A DNA stretch of 64,000 nucleotides from Candidatus Saccharimonadota bacterium (GTDB taxonomy: Bacteria; Patescibacteriota; Saccharimonadia; Saccharimonadales; UBA4665). This document shows positions 1-49,220 of the stretch, piece after piece. The stretch covers positions 1-64,000 of the forward strand of contig JABCZM010000008.1 of NCBI GenBank assembly GCA_013289705.1, read 5' to 3'. Both the position numbers and the translations under genes were made by a program. Under the pieces are notes generated by a model. That model worked only from the letters and a program-made list of their open reading frames with translations. It had not been told where the DNA came from and searched no databases. Positions within the stretch are counted from its first letter, which is position 1; each line of letters begins with the position of its first letter.

Positions 1-122
1 CCAAGAAGCACGTTTCATGGATTCGACAAGCTTACGAGTACTTCCAGCGAATACTCACGGGGCTCAGGGCCTTAACGGTGCTGACGCCCCGTTCCAGAGG
101 TCAGGTTTGAAGTGCATGTGGT
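1..122. other. unassigned edge sequence with two hairpins
   Basis: No gene is recognised here. On the minus strand, just downstream of the HAD gene, there are two potential hairpins: one with arms GGGGC...TCAG and CTGA...GCCCC (about 60-92), the other GAGTA/TACTC (about 36-56). Neither has a T-tract, so neither is a clear terminator. A 17-codon minus ORF with one Trp codon (64-117) overlaps the first hairpin. The plus strand carries TGGATTCGAC near position 18, resembling a tmRNA 5' end, but no matching 3' portion follows. Confidence 0.3.
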
Positions 123-878
123 TCAGTGAAATTCCTTTGCTAAAGCTGCCCTTTTATTGTCATCTGAAATAACTATAAGACCGGTAATTTCTGGACTGAA
201 TTGTGCTGCCAGCGCATCTTCACGGCCGTCTCCCGCATATAATATGGGGTAATGCTCTGGCCTACCAACTATCCGCGCGGCTAGGTATATCGAATAGTTG
301 GCGGGTTTGCAAAGTGAGTGCCGTATTTGGGGGTGCCTAGCATGTTCGCTTCTTAATTGATCCTGTCCGATAATCGCCCGGCTTGGGAAGGCTTGTCTTA
401 TGGGCAGAGCTTCTGAATCAATTCTTCTAAAAAATTCATATAACATCGATTCCGGACTTTGGGTCGCAATACCGGATCTTCGTTCCCTTTCGACAAGCAT
501 TTGTACAAGTGAATGGACACCTGGCATTAGGCGATCGATAGGATTAATGTCATCTCTCATTAGGTCGGTTATTATTTCTTCCTGTAAAGCACAGGCCCCG
601 AGTAATTCTTTGGCTGATAGTTCAGATAATCCTAGTTCTCTATGGATTACCTGAAGCACTCGTGCGGGGCTTTTGCCACGTAGTTTTTGTACTAGATCTT
701 GCGTGTACTTAATGGTAGAACCGGTTACTTGTTCCATGGTTGCGTTGAATGATGCGCTATGCAAATCACTTGTTTCGGCGAGCGTATGATCAAAATCAGA
801 CACAAACGTGACGTCCGGATCGTAGAACATGTCGCGTAGTGTATCAAGACTTCCGGCTCCCGCAAATATATTAGTCAT
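123..878 (-). CDS. HAD-superfamily phosphatase, last gene of the trp transcript
   Basis: This is a 251-residue haloacid-dehalogenase-type hydrolase, expected to remove a phosphate from a small metabolite in the cytoplasm; the substrate is unknown. Motif I is visible near residues 28-32 (DFDHT, the nucleophile and acid/base aspartates), and motif IV near the C-terminus as GDGREDA. An upstream ATG at 893 is possible, but I prefer 878 because AAAGGA lies about 7 bases ahead of it, and because it overlaps the end of the preceding trpC-kinase gene in an ATGACTAA arrangement typical of translational coupling. Its position after the TrpC-kinase fusion suggests it acts on a related sugar phosphate, but that is inference. 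Confidence 0.75.
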   Translation of the reverse strand: MTNIFAGAGSLDTLRDMFYDPDVTFVSDFDHTLAETSDLHSASFNATMEQVTGSTIKYTQDLVQKLRGKSPARVLQVIHRELGLSELSAKELLGACALQEEIITDLMRDDINPIDRLMPGVHSLVQMLVERERRSGIATQSPESMLYEFFRRIDSEALPIRQAFPSRAIIGQDQLRSEHARHPQIRHSLCKPANYSIYLAARIVGRPEHYPILYAGDGREDALAAQFSPEITGLIVISDDNKRAALAKEFH

Positions 879-2526
879 TACGTTTCCTTTCATATTGTTT
901 CCGATAAAATGAGTTATTTAATAGTACTTTTGCCGATTCGATTTGGGCAGCGTTGACAATAGTTTTTAGGTCTTCTTCAAGGCTCATGCTATTGGCGACC
1001 ATGCCCATAACGGTGCCAGCAAACACATCGCCGGCATTGGCAGGACTTAATGGTGTTATTTTTTGAGGTGGCACAAACTGTTGTATGTCATGACGCGACA
1101 AGACCGTGACGCCTGCGCTACCTTGCTTCCGAAATACAAACTGTAATTTCGGAAAGTTTGTGAGTAAGTCACCCTCTATCTTCGTAAGTACGTAATCATA
1201 TTCTTGTTGATTCAAAAATAAGTAGTCGGCCTTACTGATTAGTTTTAGCGAATCTTTAAGATTGTGACGCAAATGATAATGCAGCATATCGGTTGCTATA
1301 ACGGCTGGATGTTTCAGCTGTTCAAGGACTCTGAGTCCATTTGCTGGGTTCGATCCACTTAGTAGTACGTGTGTAGTGTTGCCAGAAAGGTTTTTGTTTA
1401 GCAATGGTTTGTAGTCTTTGTAGACGCCAAAATCAATCAATTCATCGCAGAGTTCAAAACTTACTGGATCATATGTGCCACTCCAACGAAACGTTTGTCC
1501 AGGTATTTCAGCTACATTTGCCACGCTTACTTTATCGCCAACAGATTGGCCTAATTTCGCAACCCCCAGGTCATTACCTATACCGCTCACAAGGTCAACG
1601 GGGACATGTCTGCTAGCAGCAATGCTGGCCAGCACACCGTTCCCTCCAATGTCAGGCTGTCCGTATGACTGGCCAATGAATGTGACGGTTGATAGCTCAG
1701 TAGCACCAAATACTAACAGTCGATTTATTGACCGTGAGTGAAGCTCGCTAAGCTTTTCGCGGATGTTGTCAGATTTCATCAGTACAGTCCCTATTAGTAC
1801 TGCATCGGCACCATTTTCTCGAGCAGATGCAATATCTTTAGCGCTGGTGATACCCGACTCGGCGACGAGTAGTACATTGTCTGGAACAGTGGCCGCAAAC
1901 TTTGAAAAAAGCTTGGTCTCCACAGTAAAAGTTCCCAAATCGCGACAATTAATGCCGATTATTTGTGCTCCCGCTTTAATACCACGATCTATTTCATCGA
2001 CTGAATGCACTTCTACCAAAGCGTACATCCCCAGTTCCGTACAGACCTTAAGCAGATCACACAATTGGTCTTGTGACAAAAGCGAAACAATCAATAAGAC
2101 TGCATCGGCCTCAGCAAGGTACGATTCATAGATTTGATATTGATCAAAAATGAAGTCCTTGCGGAGTATCGGGACGTTTGATTCTTGCTTGACCGTGGCG
2201 ATGTAAGACAAGTCACCCAGAAAATATCTACTCTCTGTTAAAACAGATATTGCATCTACAAACCCCGATTGCTCGTAGGTTTTACTAATGACGACAGGAT
2301 TAAAGTGCTTTCGAATTATTCCTTCTGACGGTGACGCTTGTTTTATTTCTGCTATCAGGCTACAGCGGCCAGCTTTAGTGATCCCTGCGCTAAAATCTCT
2401 TACCTCTGTTTTTCGCTTAGTCAAAGACTTTTTGAGTACGGCGAGGGGCCTTCGTTTCTTTAATTGTGTAAGCTCGTGTTGTTTGTTTGCTACTATATCG
2501 TCTAGGCTAATGCGCTCATCTTTCAT
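871..2526 (-). CDS. trpC: indole-3-glycerol-phosphate synthase fused to PfkB-type sugar kinase
   Basis: The 551-residue protein joins two enzymes. Residues 1 to about 262 are a complete TrpC beta/alpha barrel, which closes carboxyphenylaminodeoxyribulose phosphate to indole-3-glycerol phosphate. Its conserved residues are visible: EIK (60-62) before SPS, K123 in RKDF, E172 in VEVH, N193 in GINC and E223-S224 in AESG. Residues about 269-540 are a ribokinase/PfkB-like kinase with an N-terminal Gly-Gly motif (DIGGN) and a C-terminal anion-hole motif NAGD with the presumed catalytic D500. I know of no standard TrpC-PfkB fusion; the kinase substrate cannot be told. The start at 2526 has AAGGAG 8 bases upstream. 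The gene follows trpR and an attenuator, and overlaps the HAD gene by 8 bases. Confidence 0.88.
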   Translation of the reverse strand: MKDERISLDDIVANKQHELTQLKKRRPLAVLKKSLTKRKTEVRDFSAGITKAGRCSLIAEIKQASPSEGIIRKHFNPVVISKTYEQSGFVDAISVLTESRYFLGDLSYIATVKQESNVPILRKDFIFDQYQIYESYLAEADAVLLIVSLLSQDQLCDLLKVCTELGMYALVEVHSVDEIDRGIKAGAQIIGINCRDLGTFTVETKLFSKFAATVPDNVLLVAESGITSAKDIASARENGADAVLIGTVLMKSDNIREKLSELHSRSINRLLVFGATELSTVTFIGQSYGQPDIGGNGVLASIAASRHVPVDLVSGIGNDLGVAKLGQSVGDKVSVANVAEIPGQTFRWSGTYDPVSFELCDELIDFGVYKDYKPLLNKNLSGNTTHVLLSGSNPANGLRVLEQLKHPAVIATDMLHYHLRHNLKDSLKLISKADYLFLNQQEYDYVLTKIEGDLLTNFPKLQFVFRKQGSAGVTVLSRHDIQQFVPPQKITPLSPANAGDVFAGTVMGMVANSMSLEEDLKTIVNAAQIESAKVLLNNSFYRKQYERKRND

Positions 2527-2547: not shown

Positions 2548-2640
2548 AAAAAACCTCCCGTGGTGGGAGGCATAAAGTTTTTCAAATTAACTTACATTAA
2601 TACGTCTTTAATTAGACTCCCGCGTAAAATTGGAAGTCCA
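2548..2640 (-). promoter_or_regulatory. trp attenuator (alternative hairpins and terminator)
   Basis: Between the trp leader peptide and trpC, the minus-strand RNA can fold in two exclusive ways. The terminator has arms CCTCCC (2570-2565) and GGGAGG (2559-2554), followed by six T's (2553-2548). The antiterminator pairs GGGAG (2621-2617) with CTCCC (2569-2565) and adds TAAAG (2610-2606) with CTTTA (2577-2573). A 1:2 stem pairs GACTTCC (2638-2632) with GGGAGTC (2621-2615). Segment 1 starts at the last base of the second Trp codon, so a ribosome stalled for tryptophan would mask it and free segment 2, as in the E. coli trp attenuator. Pairings were found by eye, not by folding software. Confidence 0.85.
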
Positions 2641-2691
2641 CCAGGCACCTTGTTGGCCAAAATTGGTGATAGTTGTGTGTAATTGGTTCAT
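2608..2691 (-). CDS. trpL: trp leader peptide with tandem Trp codons
   Basis: This is a 27-codon ORF starting at an ATG that overlaps the trpR stop as TAATG. AAGGAAAA lies just upstream as its ribosome site, inside the end of trpR. The peptide contains two adjacent tryptophan codons (TGG TGG, 2643-2638) at residues 17 and 18, placed directly before segment 1 of the attenuator. The rest is unremarkable (Asn, Gln and Thr rich). It is too short for ordinary gene finding. The position, codon choice and following terminator match the classical trp leader; it would sense charged tRNA-Trp, not make a functional protein. Confidence 0.88.
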   Translation of the reverse strand: MNQLHTTITNFGQQGAWWTSNFTRESN

Positions 2692-2945
2692 TACGTTTTC
2701 CTTAGTACCTGGAATCTGCCTTGGGCTAGTTCTTTTGATCCGCGAGTGACAGTGGCTACGCCGACGCCTAAATCGCTGGCGATTTGGTGTTGGGGTGATC
2801 CGCTGAGTAAACGCTTTACGATCTCAATCCTTCTGACGAATTCGGCGCGTTCATTATCAGTGGTAATACCTACCAATAGGTCTTCGAGTGTTGCCTCGTC
2901 TTTGATTGAATGAACTAATTGCACAAAGTCATGAAAATCAGGCAT
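2691..2945 (-). CDS. trpR: Trp repressor (TrpR) family regulator
   Basis: An 84-residue all-helical DNA-binding protein. The helix-turn-helix region reads as GVGVATVTRGSKEL, close to the E. coli TrpR segment GAGIATITRGSNSL, and the earlier RRIEIVKRLL matches the helix that carries the tryptophan-contacting Arg54. This is nearer to true TrpR than to the YerC/YecD branch, which ends in SRVNR-like sequence. It is shorter at both ends than E. coli TrpR (108 residues), and the residue equivalent to Ser88 appears to be Glu, so tryptophan binding should be tested. It sits directly after aroK with its own promoter and a TrpR-like operator, which implies autoregulation together with trpC. Confidence 0.9.
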   Translation of the reverse strand: MPDFHDFVQLVHSIKDEATLEDLLVGITTDNERAEFVRRIEIVKRLLSGSPQHQIASDLGVGVATVTRGSKELAQGRFQVLRKT

Positions 2946-2951
2946 GGGTAA

Positions 2952-2969
2952 ATACTAGCATACTAGTAC
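2952..2969. promoter_or_regulatory. TrpR-type operator overlapping the -10
   Basis: The minus strand contains the inverted repeat TACTAG-TATG-CTAGTA. The two CTAG cores are 4 bases apart, exactly as in the E. coli trp operator (ACTAG-TTAA-CTAGT), and the site covers the -10 of the trpR promoter, the same placement as in E. coli trp and trpR. The matching repressor gene begins 7 bases downstream. I saw no second copy of this spaced CTAG pair upstream of DAHP synthase. Confidence 0.8.
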
Positions 2970-2981
2970 GTTCTATGTCAA
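2952..2981 (-). promoter_or_regulatory. internal promoter of trpR-trpC
   Basis: TTGACA (2981-2976, overlapping the aroK stop codon) and TAGTAT (2957-2952) are separated by 18 bases. The ATG of trpR is only 7 bases past the -10, so transcription should begin at or next to the start codon, giving a leaderless mRNA; no Shine-Dalgarno sequence is present. Confidence 0.8.
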
Positions 2982-3514
2982 TACGGGGTTTTGTCCATGA
3001 GGTACAAAATTAAAGTTGCTGCTTGGTTGATGCTATTTCTTTCGGTGTCTATTCTCACGTCCATAACATCCAGGTATAGTCTGGTTCGTTGTTGTTCTAA
3101 AACTGTTAGTTCACTGAGTAATGTTGTCTCGCTCGTCAGCTTTGGGCGATTTGGGTCATTAGTAATTCGGCGTTCCAATACATCCGCCGGTGCGTGAAGC
3201 CACGCAACAAAACCCAGATTGCGAAGCGGCGGGATGTTTTCGGGTATGGTCACAATGCCGCCGCCTGTAGAAATGATGGCGTCCGTCGTATCTTCTAAGC
3301 TTGCCAACACAGCTGATTCGTGCGCACGAAAATAGCCCCAACCATGTGCCTCGACCGCGTCGGGGATTGACTGTCCCATAAGCTTTGCGGTCATCTTATC
3401 GGTTTCAAAGAGTTCTCTGCCGGTTATGGTGGCTAGGCGTCTGCCAATTGCACTCTTTCCTGTGCCTCGAAGGCCTACTTCGACGATGTTGTTGGGCTTT
3501 TGTGTGGTACTCAT
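2978..3514 (-). CDS. aroK: shikimate kinase
   Basis: 178 residues, a P-loop kinase that phosphorylates the 3-hydroxyl of shikimate, step five of the shikimate pathway. The Walker A motif GLRGTGKSAIG is near residues 14-24, the shikimate-binding GGG appears in STGGGIV, and the lid region carries RPKL. Length is normal for the family. The start overlaps the end of ilvE by 4 bases (ATGA). The stop codon lies inside the -35 of the trpR promoter. It is part of the aromatic operon read from the promoter at 7708. Confidence 0.92.
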   Translation of the reverse strand: MSTTQKPNNIVEVGLRGTGKSAIGRRLATITGRELFETDKMTAKLMGQSIPDAVEAHGWGYFRAHESAVLASLEDTTDAIISTGGGIVTIPENIPPLRNLGFVAWLHAPADVLERRITNDPNRPKLTSETTLLSELTVLEQQRTRLYLDVMDVRIDTERNSINQAATLILYLMDKTPY

Positions 3515-4421
3515 GACGGTACCTTTGTAAACAGTCCTGGATGTGTAGTTGGTAAATTGATGAATGATTCATGAAGTTTACGACTAATCGGCCCTTCTTT
3601 GCTGCTAATTTTAACATTATCAACCTTGGCGCACCACGAAATTTCTACGGCCGTACCGCAAAAGAATAGTTCGTCGGCAGTGTAGAGTTCGGTGCGGTTG
3701 ATTGTCCGTTCGACAACGGGGATGCTTTGCTCTTTTGCTAACTCAATAACAGTGCGCCGTGTAATGCCTTCCAGGATATCGGCATCGGTTGTGGGCGTAA
3801 TCAGCTCACCGTCTTTAACCATAAACAGGTTCATAACGGCGCCTTCGCCCACGTTACCAGCTTGATTAAGTAAAATTGCCGAATCGAACCCGGCTTGCTT
3901 GGCATCGTGAATGGCAAGTGACGAATTCAGGTAGCCACCGGAGGCTTTGGTACGCGGCGGCAGTGCATTATCGGCGTTGCGTTGCCAGCTTGACACGCAA
4001 ACGGATAGGCCTTTATCCGCTTCAAAGTACGAAGGCATACCAATAAGGTAGACGCTTAAATCGTAGTCGCCAGCGATGTCTGGCGAAAGCTGCAAGTCGG
4101 ATCGGTACACCAGTGGACGGGGATGTAGGTTGTACCAGTCGGCTTGTTTTTGGCTACCAATTCGACGATGGTACTTTTGATCGCCGCTTCGTCGAAATTA
4201 AATGGAAAGCGCAGTATTTTGCAGCTATTTTTCATGCGCTTTAGATGGTCGTCAAGCCGAAAGATGCCTACGGCTCCATCGGGCATTTGGTAGGCTTTGA
4301 TACCGGCAAACACACCTGCGCCGTAGTGTAGTGCATTTGTCATAACAGATACGGTTGCTTCTTCGATGGGCACAATGTTGCCACGGATGAAAGCGAAGGG
4401 GTATGGTTGAAATTCGGCCAT
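3511..4421 (-). pseudogene. ilvE: branched-chain/aromatic aminotransferase, frameshifted
   Basis: Two overlapping reading frames together make one class IV PLP aminotransferase. The N-terminal part runs from 4421 and the C-terminal part, which includes LVYRSD, GEGAVMNLF and EGITRRTVIEL, ends at 3511. Class IV enzymes usually read YIRPL here; the first frame reads YIPVH because of a run of four C's (4119-4122 on the plus strand as GGGG). Removing two bases restores the exact family sequence; adding one also restores the frame with an extra Pro. No classical slippery heptamer is present. It could be a consensus error in a homopolymer or a real lesion. In this operon the enzyme would transaminate the final keto acids to phenylalanine, tyrosine or branched-chain amino acids. 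Confidence 0.8.
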
Positions 4422-4423
4422 AG

Positions 4424-5488
4424 TTAGTTTCCTTTCGGGTATGATCCTAGTAGTTTACAGCTTTTTGCGGTGTTATTTAAGGCTTCGAGCGCTTTTGCCA
4501 CATTCGCGGTGTCTTTGTGACCTTCAAAATCAATATAGAATGCATATTGATGATCTGGGTGCGGCTGCGATTCCAAGCGAAGCAAGTTAATTCCGTTTGC
4601 TACAAAAATACCTAGCAGTTCATGCAGTGCGCCAGGTTTATCTGTAGTCGTGCAAATAACACTTGTTTTATCGCTGTCTGTAGGCTCAGTTGCGGCTTTG
4701 CCTAGTAGTACAAAGCGGGTTTCATTACTGACGTTATCGCTTATTGCCTTTGCTATAACCGGAAGTCCTACGATGTCGGCAGCCTTTTTGCTAGCAATTG
4801 CTGCGCTTGTTGGCTCATTGGCGGCTTGTTGTGCCGCCTGGCTGTTGCTTGATGCCGGTACTAGTTCGGCCTGCGACACGTGCGTACGGAGCCATTCTCG
4901 GCATTGGCCGAGTGCCTGGGGGTGGCCGTAGACAACTTTGATGTCGTCTAGCGTCTTTGCGCTACTTAACAGATTGTGTTGAATTGGTAGACGGACTTCG
5001 CCGATGATACTTAGAGCAGTGCTCAGAAGCAGCTTATGTGTCTCTGTTACTGAGCCTTCCGATGAATTTTCGATTGGTAGTAAAGCAACCTCGCTTGAGC
5101 CAGACTCGGCCGCCTTAAGCGCATCGCGTAGGGTAGCTTCTGGCACAAAGTTGGAGGTTGCGCCAAGCAGTTTCTGCGCTGCCTCGTGACTATAGCTTCC
5201 AGCAGGCCCCAGATACGAAACCCGCAGCTTTTCTTCCAGATTTCGCCCAGAACTGATGATTTCGGTAAATATGGCTCGAATCGAGTCGTCTGAAAACATG
5301 CTCGTATTTTGTGTAACCATTCGCTGTAGAATTGCAGCCTCACGTGCTGGGCGATAGATTTTGACGCCGCCTTTGACACGCTTCATCTCCACCCCACATA
5401 TGGCACGTTTGGCGAGCAACTGGTTGATTTCGTCATCGATTGCATCGATACGTGTTCGGATAGCTGCAATCTTGTCTGCCTCGTTCAC
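4424..5488 (-). CDS. pheA: bifunctional chorismate mutase / prephenate dehydratase
   Basis: 354 residues in three parts. Residues 1 to about 90 are an AroQ-type chorismate mutase (IRTRIDAIDDEINQLLAKR). About 93-270 are prephenate dehydratase, starting at VSYLGPAGSYSHEAA and carrying the catalytic TRF in NETRFVLLG. About 275-345 are an ACT domain (TTDKPGALHELLG, followed by ESQP in place of the common ESRP), the usual phenylalanine-binding site. It converts chorismate to phenylpyruvate. The start overlaps the tyrA stop by 4 bases, so the two branch enzymes are translationally coupled. Confidence 0.93.
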   Translation of the reverse strand: MNEADKIAAIRTRIDAIDDEINQLLAKRAICGVEMKRVKGGVKIYRPAREAAILQRMVTQNTSMFSDDSIRAIFTEIISSGRNLEEKLRVSYLGPAGSYSHEAAQKLLGATSNFVPEATLRDALKAAESGSSEVALLPIENSSEGSVTETHKLLLSTALSIIGEVRLPIQHNLLSSAKTLDDIKVVYGHPQALGQCREWLRTHVSQAELVPASSNSQAAQQAANEPTSAAIASKKAADIVGLPVIAKAISDNVSNETRFVLLGKAATEPTDSDKTSVICTTTDKPGALHELLGIFVANGINLLRLESQPHPDHQYAFYIDFEGHKDTANVAKALEALNNTAKSCKLLGSYPKGN

Positions 5489-6231
5489 AATTGTTTCCTT
5501 TCTAAACCTGCTTCAAGTTCAGTGAGTGTTTGCATAAACCGTTCTCTGACTTGTTTGGCGTATGGATTGCCAAGCTCCACCGTCTCGAATAGCTCTATGC
5601 TATGGGTCTTTTCTAGTTCAAACAAATCGAGCAGCTTGCGGTAGTAGCCGGTGTCGAGTGTCAAATTCGGCAAATCCATGTTTACTAATCCTCGGCCAAC
5701 GAAAAAGGTTAGCCCGTGCACCCAAGCCATTTGTTTATCATGATCTTCTGGCGTCATCTGTAGCAACTCAAGTCCAAGATTATCCGTAAACAATGCTTCG
5801 AGCTCTGGAAATGGTCCACCACTAAGCTCATGCCAGACCAGTTTAAAGCCTTTAGCGGTGTTGGGGTTATCTGCCACCGAGTTTGGTCCGAACATGGGGT
5901 GGGTTGCCAACAGTCGACACTTGCCTTCCAGATGCTGCTGCAAAATCTGTGAGGGCTTAACTTTTACGGAACAAACATCCATAACGATGGTTTGGGGCTG
6001 CACGAGTGGAGCTAACTGCTTGCAAATATCGTTTAGACTGGCAAGTTCGGTAGCGATAATTATTGCTGAACAATGAGCAACTTCTTCTAGGCTGCCGTGC
6101 CTTGTATTATCTGGTAGCATGTCTGCGCTAACATCCTGACGACTATGTATGAGAACCGGCAGGTGGGGTGCAATCAGGTCTGTGAGCAGTCTACCGAACG
6201 ACCCGAAGCCGATGATCCCTATCGTTTCCAT
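5485..6231 (-). CDS. tyrA: prephenate dehydrogenase
   Basis: 248 residues with an N-terminal Rossmann fold (IGIIGFGSFGRLL) for NAD(P), followed by the TyrA catalytic segment ATHPMFGPNS. It makes the tyrosine precursor from prephenate or arogenate. It is short: there is no fused chorismate mutase and no C-terminal ACT domain, so direct tyrosine feedback may be weak, which fits with control at the transcriptional leader. It follows DAHP synthase after 3 bases and overlaps pheA by 4. Confidence 0.88.
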   Translation of the reverse strand: METIGIIGFGSFGRLLTDLIAPHLPVLIHSRQDVSADMLPDNTRHGSLEEVAHCSAIIIATELASLNDICKQLAPLVQPQTIVMDVCSVKVKPSQILQQHLEGKCRLLATHPMFGPNSVADNPNTAKGFKLVWHELSGGPFPELEALFTDNLGLELLQMTPEDHDKQMAWVHGLTFFVGRGLVNMDLPNLTLDTGYYRKLLDLFELEKTHSIELFETVELGNPYAKQVRERFMQTLTELEAGLERKQL

Positions 6232-6234
6232 TTG

Positions 6235-7530
6235 CTAGGCCATCACTGCTTGCTTATTTGGTTTAGCCGTATTCTCTGCAATGATTTTTCGTCTTGTTTC
6301 GACTGCTTGCGATAGCAGCGTTAGCATTACAGTGGTCTCCTCTACGTCAACACAACTATCGGTGACACTTTTACCTTTTTCTAGGGTATCTAGTGGTCCT
6401 ATTTTTTGTGCGCCTTCGACCAAGTTTGATTCAATCATGACACCGCGTAATGCCAATTCACCTAATGCGATCTGTCCTGCGACCGATTCAATTACTTTTA
6501 TTTGGTTGCGGTAATCCTTTTCGCTGTTACCGTGGGATGCGTCAACCACAATCGCCTCGAGTAACGGTGACTTGTTATTTTTTATACGATCTGTGGTGAG
6601 CGCCCTCTTAGCTTCTTGGACCTTTTCGGTCGAGTAGTTTGGGCCACTCTTGCCACCACGAAGGATGAGGTGAGCCGTGTCGTTACCGGTAGTTTTGACC
6701 TTGCTTAGGTTTCCATCCATGTCGGAGCCAGGGTAGTTGTGGGGTGCGTTGACCGTTTCGATCGCATCAGCTGCGTCGCTAACACCACCGTCAGTGCCGT
6801 TTTTGATACCAATAATTGATGATGTTGCCGAGCCGTATTCGCGCGCGTTCTGATCGGCTACATTACGGGCACCAATTGCGTCGTATGCAACCAGACCGTT
6901 CAAGTACTGAGGAGTTAGGCCGTTCAAGCGTTCCATGGCGGTCGGTACACCCATGTCGGTAATCTTTCGTGCCAACATGCGCGTGAGGGTCAGGCCTAAG
7001 TTTATGTTACTGCTATTGTCAAGGAGCGGATCGTAGGTCATGCCTTTCCAGCCAATTGTGCTTCGCGGTTTTTCGGTGTAGGCACGCATAACAACTTCTA
7101 AGTTTGCGCCATATTCTTTGCGCCACCCAGCAACTCGTGATGCGTATTCTAGCGCGGCTTCTGGATCGTGAAGAGAACATGGCCCAACAATCACGAGCAA
7201 TCTGTCGTCCGTGCCTTTTATGATCTGCTCGGCAATAATTCTGCCCTGTCGAGTTGTGTCCGCAGAGTTTTGAGACAGCGGCAAGCGTCTTTCAAGCAAT
7301 CCGGGGGTGATAACTGGTGTTTTGCTGGCAATCCGCACATCTACCAAATCTGTCATGTCCACATTTGGCGTAGGCCACTGATCCACCAAGCTAGCTGCTT
7401 CAAGAAATTCTGATCCTTGATTTCTGGTTGTGGCGTTCATTTCCAGCTGTATGGCCTCAAGTTCGCCGGCAATCCGTAACGCCTCGTCTACCATTGTATG
7501 TTCATGTGTTGTATCTATTTCTGATGTCAT
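6235..7530 (-). CDS. aroG: DAHP synthase (3-deoxy-7-phosphoheptulonate synthase), AroFGH type
   Basis: 431 residues, catalysing the first committed step of aromatic synthesis from phosphoenolpyruvate and erythrose 4-phosphate. Family motifs are IVGPCSLHDP (metal-ligand Cys118), EKPRSTIGWKG, GIKNGTDG, LILRGGKSGPNYS, DASHGNS, MIESNLVEG and KSVTDSC. The enzyme has about 57 more N-terminal residues than E. coli AroG. Several blocks normally conserved in AroFGH, including the GEFLD and RTTESQ regions, are changed (AMERLN, RNVADQ), so its feedback behaviour may differ. It has AAAGGGAG ahead of the start and is the first full gene after the aromatic leader. Confidence 0.93.
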   Translation of the reverse strand: MTSEIDTTHEHTMVDEALRIAGELEAIQLEMNATTRNQGSEFLEAASLVDQWPTPNVDMTDLVDVRIASKTPVITPGLLERRLPLSQNSADTTRQGRIIAEQIIKGTDDRLLVIVGPCSLHDPEAALEYASRVAGWRKEYGANLEVVMRAYTEKPRSTIGWKGMTYDPLLDNSSNINLGLTLTRMLARKITDMGVPTAMERLNGLTPQYLNGLVAYDAIGARNVADQNAREYGSATSSIIGIKNGTDGGVSDAADAIETVNAPHNYPGSDMDGNLSKVKTTGNDTAHLILRGGKSGPNYSTEKVQEAKRALTTDRIKNNKSPLLEAIVVDASHGNSEKDYRNQIKVIESVAGQIALGELALRGVMIESNLVEGAQKIGPLDTLEKGKSVTDSCVDVEETTVMLTLLSQAVETRRKIIAENTAKPNKQAVMA

Positions 7531-7554: not shown

Positions 7555-7635
7555 AAAAAACCGCCTTGGTGGCGGTTTGGTTGTTTCTTATTCGTTTGTG
7601 CTATACAGCAAAATATCCGCCACGGGTGGTGTCGG
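7555..7635 (-). promoter_or_regulatory. aromatic amino-acid attenuator before DAHP synthase
   Basis: The terminator has arms AAACCGCC (7578-7571) and GGCGG (7565-7561), followed by six T's (7560-7555). The antiterminator is a perfect 7-bp pairing of GTGGCGG (7623-7617) with CCGCCAC (7575-7569). A competing 1:2 hairpin pairs CCG and CCA (7635-7627) with TGG and CGG. The Trp-Phe-Tyr-Phe codons end at 7637, immediately before segment 1, so a ribosome paused on any of them would cover segment 1 and favour the antiterminator. Pairings were made by inspection. Confidence 0.87.
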
Positions 7636-7672
7636 TAAAATAAAACCAGTTAGTCTGTATAGTCTTTTTCAT
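7601..7672 (-). CDS. aromatic leader peptide (consecutive Trp-Phe-Tyr-Phe)
   Basis: A 23-residue ORF starting MKKTIQT and containing the run W-F-Y-F (codons 7648-7637) and a later Tyr-Phe. All three aromatic amino acids made by this pathway are read in four adjacent codons, so a shortage of any one should stall the ribosome. The ATG is 9 bases past the -10 of the promoter, so the message is probably leaderless. A longer ORF upstream in the same frame runs through the previous terminator and is not real. I do not know of a described leader with this combined W-F-Y-F run. Confidence 0.87.
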   Translation of the reverse strand: MKKTIQTNWFYFTDTTRGGYFAV

Positions 7673-8167: not shown

Positions 8168-8638
8168 TTATTTCCCTTCCTTATCTTGTATCTTTTCCGC
8201 GCCGCGGAGGGAGAATGTCTCTGGTTTCTGTGCTTCGTGCTTGTGGTCTGCATCGGCATAGATCTTGAGTCGAGCCAAGCGTGCATCACGGAGCTTGTTG
8301 ACAGGTAGCATACCGCGAATCGCGTGTTCCAGGACCTTTGTTGGGTCAAGGTTCATCTGCTCCTGCAATGTACGCTCACGGAGACCACCTGGGTGACCAC
8401 TGTGATGGTAGTACATTTTGCTTGTGAGCTTGTCGCCGGTAACCTTGAGGCTTGCGGCGTTAATAACAACGACGAAGTCACCGCAGTCGATGTGCTTCGT
8501 AAATTGTGGCTTACTCTTGCCGGTTAGCAGTACGGCAACCTGTGTCGCAACACGGCCAAGCGTAACTTCTGAGGCATCAACAACGTACCACTTTCGCGTA
8601 ACATCCGTTGGTTTTGCGCTAAATGTCTTCTGGGCCAT
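8168..8638 (-). CDS. rplM: 50S ribosomal protein L13
   Basis: 156 residues. HIDCGDFVVVINA and YYHHSGHPGGL with EHAIRGMLPVNKL are the L13 core; the C-terminus is slightly extended. The start overlaps the rplQ stop by one base. L13 is an early-assembling 23S rRNA binder; the rplM-rpsI pair here is attached to the end of the alpha operon. Confidence 0.96.
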   Translation of the reverse strand: MAQKTFSAKPTDVTRKWYVVDASEVTLGRVATQVAVLLTGKSKPQFTKHIDCGDFVVVINAASLKVTGDKLTSKMYYHHSGHPGGLRERTLQEQMNLDPTKVLEHAIRGMLPVNKLRDARLARLKIYADADHKHEAQKPETFSLRGAEKIQDKEGK

Positions 8639-9093
8639 TATTTTTTCTCCTTGGCGGCTGCAACCTTGGTTTTTGGTGCAACTGGAGCCTTCTTTTCGAC
8701 AAGAGTCGCAGCCTTGGCAACAGGCGCTTCGTTTAAGTCATCAACAAAGCTAATCTTTGCAAGTTGGGCGTTGTCGCCGCGTCGCAAGATAGTCTTGGTA
8801 ATACGCAAGTGACCGCTGTCGCGACCTTTGAGTTTTGGTGCAATTTCGTCAACCAGTTTGTGGGCACTTGCAACAGTTTGCAAGCCCTGGATAACCTGGC
8901 GACGGTTGTGCAAGTCACCCTTTTTAGCCTTTGTAATCAGTTTTTCGACGTATGGCGCAACTTCCTTGGCTTTGGGAAGTGTCGTTTCGATAGTTTCATA
9001 CTTCACGAGTGAATCAGCCAAGCCTTTTAGAAGGGCTTCGCGCTGATCCATTTCGCGATTGAACTTACGTCCTTTATATCCGTGCCTATGCAT
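8638..9093 (-). CDS. rplQ: 50S ribosomal protein L17
   Basis: 151 residues. The N-terminal MHRHGYKGRKFNREMDQREALLKG block is L17; the last 40 or so residues are an Ala/Lys/Val-rich extension not found in short L17 proteins. The gene is one base from rpoA, as in the canonical alpha operon order. Confidence 0.95.
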   Translation of the reverse strand: MHRHGYKGRKFNREMDQREALLKGLADSLVKYETIETTLPKAKEVAPYVEKLITKAKKGDLHNRRQVIQGLQTVASAHKLVDEIAPKLKGRDSGHLRITKTILRRGDNAQLAKISFVDDLNEAPVAKAATLVEKKAPVAPKTKVAAAKEKK

Positions 9094-48732: not shown

Positions 48733-49059
48733 CTATGCAGCACGAGCTGGCAATATATGGCTGTGGTGCTCAGTTTTAAGAACAGCTTCGTAGCCACCCA
48801 TGCCGTTTTGCATCCAATCGCTAATACGTGCAACCGTGCGACTGGAAAGCTTGGTTTTGGCGATAATTTCGGTGTATTTGGCACCACTTTGGAGCATTTT
48901 TGCTGCTTCTAAGCGCGCACCAACCTCTGTTATTTCTTTTTCGGTCATCACATCGCGCAAGAAGTTTTGCATGGTTTTAACATCATCAATAGCAACCAAA
49001 GCAGAAGCTAACTGCTTGGCCTGTTCTGTCTGCAACACCGATGAAACTTGTTTTAACAT
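48733..49059 (-). CDS. TrpR/YerC-superfamily transcription regulator
   Basis: 108 residues from MLKQVSSVL. TMQNFLRDVMTEKEITEVGARLEAAKMLQSGAKYTEIIAKTKLSSRTVARISDWM matches the YerC/YecD branch of the TrpR fold. Longer in-frame ATGs at 49065 and 49209 fall within or before the promoter. The start is 8 bases past the -10, so the mRNA is leaderless, and a palindromic operator covers that -10, implying self-repression. A ligand is unknown. Confidence 0.82.
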   Translation of the reverse strand: MLKQVSSVLQTEQAKQLASALVAIDDVKTMQNFLRDVMTEKEITEVGARLEAAKMLQSGAKYTEIIAKTKLSSRTVARISDWMQNGMGGYEAVLKTEHHSHILPARAA

Positions 49060-49064
49060 GTCCA

Positions 49065-49095
49065 TTACTTTAGCAAAGTAAAGTAAGCTTGTCAA
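49065..49095. promoter_or_regulatory. promoter and palindromic operator of the TrpR-like gene
   Basis: On the minus strand TTGACA (49095-49090), 17 bases, TAAAGT (49072-49067). Over the spacer and -10 lies a perfect inverted repeat TTACTTTA-(6)-TAAAGTAA (49065-49086). Confidence 0.8.
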
Positions 49096-49181
49096 ACTTT
49101 CCGTCGCTTTGTCGAATACACCTAAGCGTAAGTTCTGGTTTGTTTTTTTCAAAAAATGCATTACAAACGGCGTATGAAAGC

Positions 49182-49220
49182 TTGACCACAATGCATTATG
49201 TAAGTACAATAGTAATTACT
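49182..49220 (+). promoter_or_regulatory. mazEF promoter
   Basis: TTGACC (49182-49187), 17 bases, TACAAT (49205-49210), followed by the palindrome AGTAATTACT (49211-49220) and the ATG. The palindrome is a possible antitoxin operator. No Shine-Dalgarno. Confidence 0.72.

Follow-up and report, generated by a model that had tools for sequence, protein, structure and literature searches.

The trpC::pfkB gene and its HAD neighbour

The window, a stretch of 64,000 nucleotides, opens with the first base of contig C8, which belongs to a 13-contig assembly (1.24 Mb) rated 97.4% complete. Positions 871..2526 hold a trpC::pfkB fusion gene, which encodes 551 amino acids in a single open frame without a stop. 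An earlier note on this DNA had described one ORF at 871-2526 that joins TrpC to a PfkB-type kinase, and the uninterrupted 551-codon frame bears this out. Its coordinates were exact and the sole correction concerns the strand, the plus frame over this interval being full of stops and the coding strand being the minus strand. The ORF starts with an ATG behind an AAGGAG Shine-Dalgarno sequence and has 0 internal stops.

The first part of the protein is an indole-3-glycerol phosphate synthase (TrpC) domain (residues 8-262, positions 1741..2505, minus strand). It matches PF00218 (IGPS) of Pfam over model positions 1-254 with 257 bits against a cut-off of 27, and the TrpC equivalog NF001377 of NCBIfam with 295 bits against a cut-off of 260. 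The motifs AEIKQASPSEG, LRKDFIFD, ALVEVHS, INCRDL and VAESGI are all present (residues 59, 121, 169, 190 and 221), in agreement with the earlier description of a complete TrpC barrel with its catalytic residues. The second part, from about residue 267 to residue 551 (874..1728, minus strand), is a PfkB/ribokinase-like kinase domain. PF00294 (PfkB) covers residues 394-529 with 34.0 bits against a cut-off of 25.8, so that both domains of the fusion pass the Pfam check that had been proposed for it, while NCBIfam gave only weak matches, of the ribokinase type, in this half. The best match among solved structures was 3kd6 (phmmer, E 1.3e-10; next match 0.011), and the alignment with it widens the kinase homology to residues 283-515. 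The kinase motifs GGNG, NQQE (439), RKQG and NAGD (497) are all there, including the intact NAGD motif reported before.

TrpC homology stops at about residues 262-264, and the first kinase strand, RLLVFG, begins at residue 269 in the same frame after a spacer of about 4 residues. The GC content is nearly equal in the TrpC domain and the kinase domain (43.3% and 43.5%), as is GC3 (41% and 39%), and codons 256-290 contain no ATG, GTG or TTG that could serve as the start of a free-standing kinase. Given the common frame, the near-equal composition and the lack of a start codon at the junction, the fusion frame bears no trace of a frameshift; a frameshift or missing stop at about residues 262-270, which would point to two separate genes, thus finds no support. 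On this reading of the sequence, the gene is almost certainly a genuine fusion of TrpC and a kinase.

Downstream lies a HAD hydrolase gene (123..893, minus strand) that overlaps the stop of the fusion gene. Its likely start at 878, behind an AGGA Shine-Dalgarno sequence, sits within the last codons of the fusion (ATGACTAA) and would give a protein of 251 amino acids. PF13419 of Pfam matches with 30 bits, over the cut-off, and the four HAD motifs are present (DFDHT 33, TQS 144, K196 and, as GDxxxD, GDGRED 221). A HAD phosphatase next to the fusion, as the earlier note had it, is thus found in the same operon. It had no match among solved structures (PDB), and no relatives of it were found in viral contigs. 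AlphaFold models from single sequences of the fusion and of the HAD protein reached a pLDDT of 35-37 and were discarded.

An operon with tryptophan control elements

Upstream of trpC::pfkB, at 2691..2945 on the minus strand, is a gene for a TrpR-like repressor of 84 amino acids. It matches PF01371 with 57 bits and TIGR01321 with 52 bits, the latter below the equivalog cut-off of 67, and in G020, another genome of this family, the same gene is found upstream of trpC. The promoter of trpR (TTGACA-18-TAGTAT, 2952..2981, minus strand) contains at 2952-2969 the trp-operator-like palindrome GTACTAGTATGCTAGTAT with its central CTAG. An operator pattern, allowing up to 3 mismatches, had 6 matches in the window, of which 2 are the two strands of the trpR-promoter site, against 1.4 expected; it should be noted that the pattern was composed after this site had been seen, so that the exact match there is by construction. 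The core CTAGTNNNCTAG also occurs ahead of the TrpR-like gene and trpC in G020, and at a single further site in the set of loci compared. The layout of a TrpR regulon, with a TrpR-family gene and a CTAG operator in the promoter, is therefore found both here and in G020. A second ORF of the Trp-repressor family with a long N-terminal extension (PF01371, 52 bits) lies away from the trp genes at 48733-49209 of the window, minus strand.

Between trpR and trpC::pfkB, the minus strand encodes a leader peptide of 27 residues, MNQLHTTITNFGQQGAWWTSNFTRESN (2608..2691), with tandem Trp codons at 2638-2643 (codons 17-18), followed by an intrinsic terminator at 2553..2571 with the stem GCCTCCC/GGGAGGT and a T-run. 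In the predicted fold, a 1:2 hairpin (GACUUCC/GGGAGUC) directly follows the Trp codons and precedes the terminator stem (GCCUCCC/GGGAGGU); an alternative 2:3 pairing, of GGGAG in the 1:2 hairpin with CUCCC of the terminator, can be read from the sequence. Judged from these mutually exclusive pairings, the leader is a classical Trp-Trp attenuator. Its position in an operon with both a TrpR-type operator and this attenuator places the kinase and the phosphatase under predicted tryptophan control. A Trp leader peptide, MKRNCNSVKSWWSSL, and a terminator-like hairpin also precede trpE in G047 (L048:6800-7100), which suggests that another genome of the order uses attenuation as well.

Further upstream, and likewise on the minus strand, are genes for aromatic amino acid synthesis: aroK for shikimate kinase (2978..3514, Pfam), an ilvE-like aminotransferase gene read by eye (3511..4421), pheA for chorismate mutase/prephenate dehydratase/ACT (4424..5488, Pfam), tyrA for prephenate dehydrogenase (5485..6231, Pfam) and aroG for DAHP synthase (6235..7530, Pfam and NCBIfam). 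The ilvE-like gene is broken into two overlapping ORFs near 4110 (CATCCCCGTCC), which would reflect decay or a sequencing error. Upstream of aroG, at 7601-7672 on the minus strand, the leader peptide MKKTIQTNWFYFTDTTRGGYFAV is followed by a terminator-like hairpin and a T-run; this region is probably a second attenuator that answers to aromatic amino acids, ahead of aroG-tyrA-pheA.

The beginning of the window is the end of an insertion sequence (1..126, inverted repeat 104-126), recognized by the identity of bases 1-127 with the first bases of contigs C9 and C13. The element has 23-bp inverted repeats, makes 9-bp target duplications and is present in at least three copies; its traces lie at window positions 1-135, L029:1-127 and 8528-8661, L025:1-127 and L026:1-126. 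The duplication at 127..135, GGAATTTCA in minus-strand reading, recurs at the end of C13 just before trpB, and C13 ends in the same sequence with which C10 starts. The 9 bases outside the repeats pair up, GGAATTTCA at the C8 start with the C13 end and GTTGTTTAG at the C13 start with the C10 start, from which it follows that C8, C13 and C10 are consecutive with one element at each junction. This places two copies. For the copy at the C9 start, none of the contig ends supplies a partner flank, so that at least one flank is absent from the assembly.

Read on the minus strand from its far end, C13 carries trpB, trpA and trpS with overlapping gene ends (TrpB and TrpS identified by eye, TrpA by a search). 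When the empty site was rebuilt at one copy of the duplication, the HAD frame had 279 codons, compared with 256 now, and ended in a TGA overlapping the trpB start codon (ATGA). The present 3′ end of the HAD gene was accordingly made by the insertion, which cut off the original C-terminal end and split trpB from had. The IS junctions and the restored had/trpB overlap lead to a pre-insertion operon trpR-trpL-trpC::pfkB-had-trpB-trpA-trpS, in which every gene from trpC onward overlapped the next and in which kinase and HAD were embedded between trpC and trpB. The present order is trpO-trpR-trpL-trpC::pfkB-had-IS-trpB-trpA-trpS. A location of trpE, trpG, trpD and trpF in the gap between had and trpB is rejected by the inverted repeats and the 9-bp target duplication.

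Relatives of the two domains and missing pathway genes

With the whole fusion as query, no second TrpC-kinase fusion was found in three sets that overlap, namely 60 relatives, 392 class genomes and 93 family genomes, nor with the kinase domain as query in 379 genomes of the phylum. A pattern scan across 84,980 genomes turned up relatives with TrpC only, and plasmid, phage and viral-contig records as well as the literature searched yielded no such fusion either. The remark in the earlier note that a fusion of TrpC to a sugar kinase was not known thus holds across all these sets. TrpC itself is rare in this lineage, with a match in 7 of the 392 sampled class genomes and 3 of the 93 family genomes. 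Three small genomes have an orphan trpC without adjoining trpA or trpB (L047:9727-10539, L049:8801-9640 and L050:9508-10284), and no similar kinase or HAD gene lies beside the orphan trpC of G013, G054 and G073.

Free-standing relatives of the kinase domain in the phylum share 24-29% identity with it and, among the 379 sampled genomes, occur only outside the class. We aligned the fused domain with 12 relatives of the 3kd6 group, numbering residues by domain position. The fused kinase retains G10, G30-G31, N175, E178, K203, G205, G235 and D236, among which G235, D236, N175 and E178, that is, the catalytic Asp, the preceding Gly and the NxxE motif, are invariant across the alignment. The TFRWxGxY motif of the 3kd6 group is also kept (T81, F82, W84, G86 and Y88, all invariant). 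Changed in the fusion are D15, D91, N93, N152, W154, D230 and G233, the first five of which are nearly invariant in the 12 relatives and would line the substrate pocket. The substrate-side D15 has become Ser, as has D230, and G233 has become Asn, so that motif 2 reads SPANAGD instead of the usual DPTGAGD; two marks of PfkB kinases, the N-terminal substrate-binding Asp and the D of DxxGAGD, are thus absent. We read this as an intact phosphoryl-transfer core behind a changed pocket, the alternative being a damaged kinase.

In 4 of 14 fetched neighbourhoods of the relatives, genes for SAH hydrolase and SAM synthetase adjoin the kinase gene, and in 4 others an adenosine-deaminase-like gene lies within a few kilobases of it. 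These neighbours suggest that the 3kd6 group is one of nucleoside (adenosine) kinases, which its members probably are; we take 3kd6 itself to have been solved as a nucleoside kinase with AMP. Viral contigs and phages contained no relatives of the kinase domain, and the single plasmid match, from Agrobacterium vitis, is a kinase gene beside a nucleoside phosphorylase gene.

TrpF (PF00697), TrpD (PF00591) and TrpE (PF00425) had no match in the fusion's own genome, 97.4% complete as rated, and neither had chorismate synthase AroC (PF01264), in searches that covered these four families and whose positive controls matched in 14 of 14 genomes. For PF01761, only an AroB-like (DHQ-synthase) protein on contig C1 was found, below the aroB cut-off. 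Its gene stands in a row with an SDR gene and a heptose-kinase-like gene (L092:7181-10178), a cluster that possibly belongs to a cyclitol or heptose pathway rather than to the shikimate pathway. Either the organism truly lacks the upper pathway or the assembly has a gap there. That AroC is missing beside aroG, aroK, pheA and tyrA argues for a gap, while the resolved IS junctions indicate that, wherever the missing genes may lie, it is not in the trp operon. Among relatives, G020 has the operon trpC-B-A-E-G-D-F and G047 the order E-G-D-F-C-B-A-S, while G156 and G352 encode TrpD-TrpC-TrpF triple fusions. The triple fusions follow trpG, in two genomes of the order (L015:553-2772, plus strand, 739 amino acids; L016:988-3201, minus strand, 737 amino acids).

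Possible roles of the fused kinase

The best explanation of the locus is that the fusion encodes a bifunctional enzyme that would act within a Trp-regulated operon. In trp operons, fused enzymes as a rule pass an intermediate from one to the other, as in TrpC-TrpF, and the simplest link between the present domains would be that the product of the kinase is the substrate of TrpC. The kinase would phosphorylate the terminal hydroxyl of a nucleoside-like or Amadori pentose. Its likeliest substrate would be 1-(o-carboxyphenylamino)-1-deoxyribulose (CdR), which would be converted to CdRP, the substrate of TrpC and the 5-phosphate of the anthranilate-ribose Amadori compound. Culture fluids of trp mutants are known to contain dephosphorylated CdRP; CdR might arise here from anthranilate and ribose or leak from other bacteria, and we know of no transporter or CdR source for this organism. 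The attached TrpC would turn CdRP into indole-glycerol phosphate for TrpA and TrpB, so that tryptophan synthesis would be entered at the TrpC step without TrpE, TrpG, TrpD and TrpF. With such a kinase the operon would make sense as a self-contained unit, given that trpE, trpD and trpF were not found and trpB, trpA and trpS are present. That the kinase converts CdR to CdRP is a tentative proposal, which we put forward as possible rather than probable. We are more doubtful still about an undescribed route into the pathway in which a kinase for CdR or N-ribosyl-anthranilate, fused to TrpC, would lead a scavenged or spontaneously formed unphosphorylated intermediate to tryptophan without the upper enzymes.

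The earlier note had suggested that kinase and phosphatase may act as a pair on a pentose or anthranilate-ribose intermediate. The anthranilate-ribose intermediate is chemically sensible, and the idea gains from the location in a Trp-regulated operon and from the searches in which trpE, trpD and trpF were not found. The pairing is unsupported: the HAD gene was coupled to trpB, and its product may just as well supply serine or have some other task. More tentatively, the HAD protein might be a small-molecule phosphatase for the same operon, for example one that converts phosphoserine to serine for TrpB; this is a guess.

The main rival to a CdR kinase is a complete tryptophan pathway, with trpE, trpG, trpD, trpF and the aro genes that were not found all located on a contig left out of the bin. 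The kinase would then add a separate activity, for example the recycling of a ribosyl or nucleoside by-product, or favour another step of the pathway. We regard this as a serious possibility, if still short of probable. The lack of AroC despite aroG, aroK, pheA and tyrA, with earlier and later aromatic genes thus at hand, suggests that some aromatic genes are simply unassembled and weakens the case for a CdR kinase, as does the C9 element end without a partner, for which at least one flank lies outside the assembly. The sub-cut-off AroB-like protein, placed beside an SDR and a heptose-kinase-like gene, fits the same picture, and G020 and G047, the two relatives with trpB-trpA beside trpC, carry E, G, D and F in the operon. 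Against this stand the 97.4% completeness of the genome, the IS junctions, which leave no place for these genes between had and trpB, and the position of trpS after trpA, so that the missing genes are not in the places that they occupy in G020 and G047.

The pocket changes bear on a second alternative, in which the kinase domain has little or no catalytic activity and plays a structural or regulatory part for TrpC. The replacement of the almost invariant D15 by Ser and the SPANAGD version of motif 2 speak for it, and the loss of D15, D91, N93, N152, W154, D230 and G233, which could mean such a kinase, weakens the CdR proposal, as does the lack of a homologous fusion that could show conservation. 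A structural relic, however, would not need the catalytic Asp, the preceding Gly, NxxE, KxG and a near-full domain length, all of which were kept, and we consider this alternative unlikely. We think it distinctly unlikely that the domain is a plain kinase of adenosine or other nucleosides, fused to TrpC by chance and at work in adenosine or ribose recycling instead of tryptophan synthesis. The SAH hydrolase and SAM synthetase genes beside relatives (4/14 neighbourhoods) would fit, as would an SAH-hydrolase-like gene on contig C11 of the own genome, read by eye, and the lack of any second match to the kinase domain in this genome at E ≤ 0.001, but the gene's place in a Trp-regulated operon and the loss of the group's pocket residues count against it. 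Very improbable is a two-step sugar phosphate salvage by kinase and HAD that feeds ribose-5-phosphate/PRPP or serine into the making of tryptophan, since TrpD, the consumer of PRPP, was not found and no PDB match points to a HAD substrate, even though the ORFs of kinase and HAD overlap, as did those of HAD and trpB before the insertion. Finally, an assembly or sequencing artefact that merged two genes, for example through one wrong base that conceals a stop near residues 263-267, is hardly credible: the fusion is present in one genome only and the broken ilvE-like gene nearby demonstrates that errors or decay do occur, but 551 codons without a stop, homology regions that meet within a few residues in one frame, a uniform composition and a junction without a start codon stand against it.

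Tryptophan synthesis is among the best-mapped pathways and has few known ways in. If the fused kinase does phosphorylate CdR, a kinase-TrpC protein accompanied by only the lower-half genes would point to a new way in, through CdR salvage, and to a metabolic dependence between reduced-genome bacteria and their neighbours; the fusion would be much more interesting if this salvage holds.

The proposed chemistry has a counterpart in FrlD, the fructoselysine 6-kinase, a PfkB kinase that phosphorylates the Amadori product of an amine and a sugar. The likeness is one of chemistry only, and no PRK09813 match is listed for the fusion. By contrast, 3kd6 (PDB 'Carbohydrate kinase, PfkB family'), the best solved-structure match, shares TFRWxGxY with the fused domain but is free-standing, and its relatives keep the pocket residues that the fusion has lost. 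The TrpC-TrpF protein of the E. coli type (PRK09427) has the same TrpC domain, fused C-terminally to another enzyme; there the partner is TrpF, which was not found in the present genome, and here it is a PfkB kinase. TrpC is likewise N-terminal in the two-domain TrpC-TrpB protein (PRK13802), whose C-terminal domain is unrelated to the kinase. The pairing of TrpC with a kinase, of which the searches gave no second example, is thus a new form of a known type of event: fusions of trp genes to non-trp genes are already known from marine metagenomes (PMC2395257), where trpF-truA and trpE-PLPDE_IV likewise join a trp gene to a non-trp gene, with a trp gene and a partner that differ from those described here.
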